47,906 bases of DNA from Parcubacteria group bacterium (GTDB lineage Bacteria; Patescibacteriota; Patescibacteriia; Patescibacteriales; GWC2-42-12): positions 1-47,906 of the forward strand of contig JACPHD010000039.1 of NCBI GenBank assembly GCA_016188785.1. The letters run 5' to 3'. The position numbers were made by a program, and so were the translations under genes. The notes below the pieces were generated by a model that saw only the letters and a list, made by a program, of their open reading frames with translations, ran no database searches and was not told the DNA's origin. The number at the start of each line of letters is the position of its first letter. Positions within the stretch are counted from its first letter, which is position 1. Below, piece by piece: positions 5,279-9,844 of the stretch.

Positions 5279-5390
5279 GCCCCCTGCCAGAGTTGAACCG
5301 ACAACCTATGGTTTACCCGCCCGCAACGACTCGCAAGCGAGTCTTGCGTGTCGGGCGGGCGATACCGCTGCCCCGCCTGCCAAAGCCAGA
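5279..5390 (-). pseudogene. Broken tRNA-Thr copy split by a palindrome in the anticodon loop
   Basis: Positions 5279-5316 align base for base with the 3' half of the intact tRNA-Thr at 5391-5462 (same T-loop and same anticodon 3' stem). The match then stops between anticodon bases 34 and 35 and a 44-base GC-rich palindrome (5317-5360) follows. It resumes at 5361 with the six bases of the anticodon 5' stem. The D-arm and acceptor region (5367-5390) is degenerate and the acceptor stem cannot close. It sits directly against the intact gene. Confidence 0.75.
5317..5360. repeat. GC-rich palindrome inside the broken tRNA-Thr
   Basis: The outer arms CCGCCCG and CGGGCGG enclose a near-perfect inner hairpin built on GACTCGC/GCGAGTC. 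The same CCCGCCCGC core appears in the insert of the split tRNA-Gly (5839-5950) and inside secA (21093-21133), so this is one family. Confidence 0.75.
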
Positions 5391-5462
5391 GCCCACTGTC
5401 GGAATTGAACCGACAACCTATGGTTTACGATACCATTGCTCTACCAGTTGAGCTAAGTGGGC
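5391..5462 (-). tRNA. tRNA-Thr (anticodon CGU)
   Basis: The reverse strand folds into a full cloverleaf of 72 bases. Acceptor arms GCCCACT/AGTGGGC pair perfectly, the D-arm is GCTC...GAGC, and the anticodon stem ATGGT/ACCAT encloses loop ATCGTAA with anticodon CGT. The T-arm is GTCGG-TTCAATT-CCGAC. No CCA is encoded. It reads ACG threonine codons. Its stop-proximal neighbour is the NIF3-like gene, four bases away on the same strand. Confidence 0.93.
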
Positions 5463-5802: not shown

Positions 5803-5984
5803 GCGGGATACGAGAATCGGACTCGCGTTTCTTGCTTGCCTGCCCGCCAGCGCTTCGCTTGAGCGAGAGACGGGAATCGAACCCGCGTTTCTTGCTTGGG
5901 AAGCAAAAGTACTGCCATTGTACTACTCTCGCGCAGGCGATGCGGGCGGGGGAAGCAGATGTACTGCCATTGTACTAATCCCGC
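5803..5984 (-). pseudogene. Split tRNA-Gly(CCC) whose anticodon loop contains a second, complete tRNA-Gly
   Basis: The halves 5803-5838 (36 bases) and 5951-5984 (34 bases) join into a 70-base tRNA the same length as the intact copy and aligning with it without gaps. Its acceptor arms GCGGGAT/ATCCCGC pair perfectly. The break lies within the anticodon, between C35 and C36. The 112-base insert consists of a palindrome arm, the whole tRNA-Gly at 5863-5932, and the other arm (CCTGCCCGCC against GGCGGG-type sequence). The outer copy has one mismatch in the anticodon stem and TCCGATT in the T-loop, so it is drifting. Called a pseudogene, though processing cannot be excluded. Confidence 0.75.
5863..5932 (-). 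tRNA. tRNA-Gly (anticodon CCC)
   Basis: A complete 70-base cloverleaf: acceptor GCGAGAG/CTCTCGC, D-arm GTAC...GTAC, anticodon loop TTCCCAA in stem TTTGC/GCAAG, and T-arm GCGGG-TTCGATT-CCCGT. It reads GGG codons. No CCA is encoded. It lies wholly inside the anticodon loop of another tRNA-Gly copy. Confidence 0.9.
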
Positions 5985-9584: not shown

Positions 9585-9816
9585 GCGGGACAGGGATTCG
9601 TCCCGAGTTAATCTCGGGACGCCACGGGTTTATCCCGTGGCTAACCACCTGATAAACGGCTTTCCCGCACAAAGCTCGGGGACAGGGATTCGAACCCCGA
9701 TTAAAGGCTCCAAAGGCCTCTGTCCTACCCTTAGACGATCCCCGAGCTTTGCGCGGGACCGCTGTCTTATTTATCCGCCAAAGCGTTAGCGACGGCGGGC
9801 CGTTGGACGACCCCGC
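9585..9816 (-). pseudogene. Split tRNA-Gln relic enclosing the intact tRNA-Gln
   Basis: Fragments of a second tRNA-Gln flank the intact one. The outer acceptor arms (GCGGGAC at 9585-9591 and GACCCCGC near 9809-9816) still pair, with two G-U pairs. The T-arm piece is interrupted by a TCCCGAG/CTCGGGA hairpin (9601-9620). The D-arm piece is interrupted by a second palindrome (about 9777-9801). The anticodon loop is opened and holds CCCGC-CAAAGC arms with the intact tRNA between them. Three separate palindromes therefore lie in the three loops of one tRNA. Confidence 0.6.
9675..9745 (-). tRNA. tRNA-Gln (anticodon UUG)
   Basis: The reverse strand gives acceptor TCGGGGA/TCCCCGA, D-arm GTC...GAC with AGGGTAG in the loop, anticodon stem GAGGC/GCCTT around loop CTTTGGA (anticodon TTG), and T-arm CGGGG-TTCGAAT-CCCTG, with G as discriminator. 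The flanks are complementary for about twelve further base pairs (CCGCACAAAGC against GCTTTGCGCGG), so the acceptor stem continues into a larger palindrome. Confidence 0.9.
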
Positions 9817-9844
9817 AATATCGGTAAGTTAGCCGCTTATTTTA

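Follow-up and report, generated by a model that had tools for sequence, protein, structure and literature searches.

Nested tRNA genes in a Parcubacteria genome suggest replacement of resident tRNA genes from within

Few genes are as conserved, or as hard to replace, as those for tRNAs. Rickettsia palindromic elements and REP/REPIN sequences are short, dispersed, GC-rich palindromes present in many copies, some of them within genes. Integrative elements use tRNA genes as targets and provide tRNA sequence in place of what they disrupt, which makes the insertion tolerable. In the archaeal order Thermoproteales, tRNA introns and their transposition have been described (PMC10714607), and a tRNA-Sec gene nested inside selB has been reported (PMC8124441).

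The window analysed here, a 47,906-nucleotide stretch of a draft Parcubacteria group genome, contains a tRNA-Gly nest at 5803–5984. The nest lies on the minus strand, which a sequence-only reading of this DNA had left out. From 5984 to 5803, the 5′ half of an outer, resident tRNA-Gly(CCC) gene (5951–5984, 34 nt) runs to anticodon base 35 and is followed by the left palindrome arm CCCGCCCGCATCGCCTGC (5933–5950), an intact inner tRNA-Gly(CCC) gene (5863–5932, 70 nt), the right arm AAGCGAAGCGCTGGCGGGCAGG (5839–5860) and the outer 3′ half (5803–5838, 36 nt, T stem intact). The inner gene was detected by both ARAGORN and Rfam (65.8 bits) and is the sole intact CCC gene that ARAGORN finds in the genome. 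Joined, the outer halves give 70 nt that align without gaps to the 70-nt inner gene (61/70 identical) and that ARAGORN calls as tRNA-Gly(CCC). Their acceptor stem forms all seven pairs (7/7), and the anticodon is split between bases 35 and 36 (CC/C). The insert measures 112 nt with the inner tRNA included. RNA folding of the whole unit predicts a cloverleaf within the anticodon loop of a second cloverleaf, with the two paired arms as the joint. The sequence-only reading had described a tRNA-Gly gene within the anticodon loop of another, the gapless 70-base join, the perfect acceptor stem, the position of the break and an insert made of palindrome arms and the inner gene, and these descriptions hold throughout. 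Its suggestion to look for the same nesting in related genomes was also rewarded, as homologous nests are present in other genera and families. A single C–A mismatch in the outer anticodon stem (TCTGC/GCAAG) had escaped it; in the homologous Gly nest of genome G008 this stem is perfectly paired. The left-arm family of the Gly nest occurs in dispersed copies through the genome. The joined outer halves match an intact gene in G024 (100%/97%), and the 70-nt join matches intact genes in G010 and G011 at 96%. Behind the Gly nest of G008 (L150, 1454–1501) there is another right arm and, beyond it, a third 3′ half whose sequence is identical to the inner gene's; this is the remnant of a third nesting level.

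These nests share features with each of the systems above. Their palindromes, like Rickettsia palindromic elements and REP/REPIN sequences, are short, GC-rich, dispersed and multicopy, and some lie in genes, but they enter tRNA loops and hairpin tips and many carry a whole tRNA gene. Like integrative elements, the tRNA-bearing cassettes target tRNA genes and bring replacement tRNA sequence; however, they are too short for an integrase, sit in mid-gene, and contain a complete, divergent tRNA rather than a 3′ end. As with the archaeal introns, a short insert in the anticodon loop has been gained repeatedly, whereas the nests lie at 35/36 or in the D loop, give no sign of splicing in a genome where no RtcB was found, carry a tRNA, and sit in host genes that decay. 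The tRNA-Sec gene in selB is likewise a tRNA gene within another gene, but there the host is a protein gene, and palindromes and serial replacement go unmentioned in its abstract (PMC8124441). We could not find nested replacement of essential tRNA genes described in the open-access literature, the scope of our search.

The window holds two further nests, both damaged and both on the minus strand. In the partly decayed Thr(CGT) nest (5279–5462), an inner tRNA-Thr(CGT) gene (5391–5462) is followed by a right arm (5372–5388) of a type also seen in G035 and G040, the D-side piece of the outer tRNA-Thr(CGT) gene (5360–5371), a further palindrome that interrupts this gene's anticodon loop (5316–5359), and its 3′ half (5279–5315). 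The left arm and outer 5′ end have been lost, leaving the right half of a D-loop nest. In the third nest (9585–9817, the outer 3′ end set by eye), an inner tRNA-Gln(TTG) gene (9677–9743) lies between arms at 9744–9756 and 9664–9676 within an outer Gln-like gene, which has a palindrome in its D loop (9775–9799) and others in its variable and T-loop region (about 9622–9640 and 9600–9620).

The genome is a draft of 1.007 Mb in 45 contigs, about 95% complete (94.8%), with contigs C8 and C13 read as N. It contains at least eight nests: Gly and Thr-CGT in the window, Thr-TGT on contig C36, Val-TAC and Met on C32, Val-CAC on C42, Pro-GGG on C37 and Glu-TTC on C9; the Gln nest is more decayed. Beyond the anticodon loop, each of the outer Pro, Met, and Gln genes has been hit by at least two additional palindromes. 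ARAGORN found no tRNA-Trp, tRNA-Tyr, or tRNA-Gly(TCC) in the whole genome (~95% complete, two short contigs read as N), and these genes may be missing or interrupted.

In every nest of the genome the inner and outer genes are of the same isotype. For Gly-CCC, Thr-TGT, Thr-CGT, Val-TAC, Val-CAC, Pro-GGG, Glu-TTC, and Gln-TTG, the genome has no intact copy besides the inner gene; the exception is Met, for which a second CAT gene exists. Anticodon matches were scored only for outer genes with an uninterrupted anticodon, because ARAGORN's intron mode misjoined halves and automatic joining mis-set arm ends at several loci. In these outer genes the anticodon is the same as the inner one (Thr CGT, Thr GGT, Arg CCG, Arg CCT, Pro GGG, Ala CGC, Ala GGC, and Val CAC); the exceptions are L266, with a decayed outer gene (CCC against CCT), and L231, which is unreadable. 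With few exceptions the genome has one gene per anticodon, so only insertions that restore function can survive, and the shared anticodon would be kept by selection. A homology-driven mechanism could act as an additional force but would not alone enforce the anticodon. The anticodon arms of inner and outer genes are often near-identical, which recombination within the tRNA would also fit.

Nesting extends well beyond this genome. A search pattern of two T arms, spaced too tightly for tandem tRNAs of normal length, matched in 31 of the 61 genomes of the order, with about 60 matches against about 15 for a reversed control, and a similar pattern matched in 122 of 381 genomes of the phylum. Since such patterns also pick up some tightly packed or short tandem tRNAs, loci were checked structurally. 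Among 67 candidates, about 60 are convincing nests, from about 40 Patescibacteria genomes; the total is approximate, some candidates being doubtful (e.g., L178, L204, L243, and own_C1), and the pattern misses nests that have lost the outer T loop. Thr, Arg, Val, Pro, Gly, Ile, Ala, Ser, Glu, Gln, Met, and other isotypes are represented, and triple nests occur in G017 (Gly) and G024 (Thr). G118, a genome of about 600 kb, has a Val-CAC nest within a 603-kb contig. The observation made at the Gly locus is thus a general one.

The palindrome arms fall into two classes. Class 1 arms (CCYGCCYG..CRGGCRGG) enter the anticodon loop or the D loop precisely, neither duplicating the target nor removing a base. 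Among the nests, the break lies at 35/36 in Gly and Thr and in the D loop in many others. Class 2 arms (CCCCG..CGGGG) are accompanied by changes to a few loop bases, so not every insertion is clean. In class 2 nests (e.g., L037 4891–5074, L200, L245, and L257) the same loop remnants flank the arms, TTCA before and CAAG after, or the reverse complement, as might be expected of an element whose two ends differ and which can enter in either orientation.

Comparison with related genomes separates resident from newcomer. Joined outer halves match intact genes in congener G001 for Thr (100%), Val-CAC (96%), and Val-TAC (93%), in G006 for Glu (93%), in G001 and G011 for Pro (89%), and in G002 and G006 for Met (84%). 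The Val-CAC and Thr loci share flanking proteins with their counterparts, the Leu-Val and Arg-Met-Lys loci correspond in gene order, and G010 has the order Thr-protein-Gly. In G001 the Thr and Val-CAC nests are absent and intact resident genes stand in their place. The inner genes find their matches elsewhere: Pro in G003 (99%), Val-TAC in the G011 gene at the same Leu-Val locus (96%), Glu in G001 (96%), and Val-CAC in G002 (93%). Inner and outer genes are only 71–87% identical in seven nests of this genome, so the inner genes are not fresh copies. The intact, syntenic outer matches, the inner matches in other genomes and this divergence together indicate that the outer genes are the native ones and that the inner genes most likely arrived from elsewhere.

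The outer genes also decay. At the Val-CAC locus, G001 has the intact resident, the genome of the window (G000) the full nest, and G002 that same nest, lacking the right arm and outer 3′ half; the G002 nest has the same upstream gene as that of G000 and one more palindrome, in the D loop. For Pro, G001 and G011 have intact genes and G000 a nest whose outer gene carries two further palindromes, while in G008 just a 5′ relic is left and in G003 nothing but the inner gene and an arm-like scrap. Because the outer genes decay and no other intact gene supplies the anticodon of the inner one (Met excepted), the inner gene appears to be the functional one and the outer gene a disposable relic.

The probable explanation is that a palindrome-bounded tRNA cassette inserts in the loop of a resident tRNA gene, and that the inner gene, of the same anticodon, replaces the outer. 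It draws on the nesting itself, the shared anticodon, the resident outer and divergent inner genes, the absence of the Thr and Val-CAC nests from G001, and the decay series. The cassette would be a whole tRNA gene flanked by the arms of a GC-rich palindrome, and its entry would destroy the resident gene. The cell would survive because the cassette supplies a tRNA of the same anticodon, from then on the only one of its kind. The inner tRNA would be expressed from the promoter of the outer gene and cut from the joint transcript by RNase P and 3′ processing enzymes. The outer gene would then gather palindromes, lose its halves and finally disappear, so that only the foreign tRNA stays at the locus, and repeated rounds would give triple nests. 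A Thr cassette with similar arms interrupts another outer gene in a genome of a second family (G043; 85% identity over cassette and arms), which favours movement as one unit. A wider reading, advanced tentatively, is that the cassettes are active, horizontally moving selfish elements at home in the loops of essential single-copy tRNA genes, which carry the replacement with them and make the host dependent, and that the tRNA sets of Patescibacteria turn over by serial nesting. If replacement of this kind occurs, foreign tRNAs taking a resident's locus from inside would explain tRNA turnover in a huge phylum, and would represent a type of insertion that compensates its damage with a spare gene copy. 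The numerous tRNA fragments and seemingly split tRNAs of these genomes would also become intelligible.

Uptake of foreign DNA offers another source for divergent inner genes: an incoming ortholog would be patched in by short-homology recombination at the anticodon or D arm, with the palindrome arms arising from repair or template switching. The frequent identity of anticodon arms would suit such a process, as would the 96% match of the inner Val-TAC gene to a gene at the same Leu-Val locus of G011. We consider it unlikely, however, given that the same arms, together with their tRNA, are met again in other outer genes and families (Thr, in G000 and G043) and that palindromes lacking a tRNA use the same sites.

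The sequence-only reading had proposed that a palindrome entered the anticodon loop and that duplication or recombination then placed the second tRNA inside. The first part stands, in that palindrome arms do interrupt the loop and carry a tRNA of the same isotype; the idea that the inner gene arose as a duplicate of the outer is not supported. In its fuller form, tandem duplication would be followed by insertion of a palindrome in one copy and recombination of the neighbouring copy between its arms. Shared isotype and often identical anticodon arms are what this predicts, and partial tandem tRNA copies do exist on contig C27. It is nonetheless improbable: inner and outer genes are far from the near-identity of tandem duplicates, their acceptor stems are paired independently, and no simple crossover places a gene between both arms. 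Moreover, G001 has the outer type intact at the Thr, Val-CAC, and Val-TAC loci, and the matches of the inner genes go some way towards placing them with other species, away from the outers. Simple duplication was rejected on the divergence of inner and outer genes. The copies on C27 (L035, 6878–7153) are two 100-nt tandem tRNA 5′ halves with a D-loop palindrome, just before an intact tRNA-Val(GAC) gene.

It had also been noted that the insert, if transcribed, would resemble an anticodon-loop intron, in which case the outer tRNA would be spliced and each nest would yield two tRNAs. Exact class 1 insertion, joined outer halves that still make a perfect tRNA, and arms predicted to form a helix on the anticodon stem are all compatible with this. 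But the RNA ligase RtcB (PF01139) was found neither in the genome (94.8% complete) nor in 12 family members (it was present in 7 of 61 genomes), and in a search for a group I intron core with Rfam only three hits in the window passed gathering cut-offs, all of them tRNAs. The breaks, at 35/36 or in the D loop, are not at the canonical intron position 37/38 of bulge-helix-bulge introns. Outer halves have been lost in G002, G008, and the Thr nest of the window, and the outer Pro, Met, and Gln genes carry their additional palindromes in other loops. Splicing of the outer gene is unlikely because RtcB was not found, relatives do without half of the outer gene, and removal of class 2 inserts would not restore the anticodon; an intron is thus a very improbable account of the nests, and was rejected on the RtcB search and the decay series. 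An assembly artefact, which a draft in 45 contigs of metagenome-assembly type might invite (the genomes compared are also metagenome assemblies), deserves practically no credence, chance and artefact being excluded for the nests as a class because homologous nests recur in independent genomes of other genera and families, an orthologous decayed version exists in a congener, and the near-closed genome G118 has its nest within a 603-kb contig.

If cassettes insert and replace as proposed, the question arises which enzyme puts hairpins into hairpin tips. As in MITEs, terminal inverted repeats are present, in the form of the palindrome arms, but target site duplication is not, class 1 insertion restoring the target exactly; the G017 nest shows a 4-base CAAG repeat. 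The Y1 (RAYT) single-strand transposase family, the mover in REP/REPIN elements, gave one weak match in G000 and none in the nest-bearing G010, and showed no clear association with nest-bearing genomes. No viral contig matched the cassette (two patterns), and no free form of it was seen. The distribution of palindromes points to structure-led insertion at hairpin tips. About 46 class 1-type palindromes were counted in the genome, of which 6/46 lie inside tRNA sequence, which makes up roughly 0.4% of the genome (an estimate). Of the 40 outside tRNA sequence, nine top a second hairpin, whereas shuffling the flanks gave 1.9 (maximum 6.3, 500 shuffles); this comparison is only indicative because the repeats share flanks. 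Cassettes may therefore land on such tips, for example in single-stranded DNA. At L049 (1448–1482) and eight similar places, a palindrome without a tRNA lies at the tip of a dispersed palindrome, mostly GTCATTGCGGGCT..GACCCGCAATCC.
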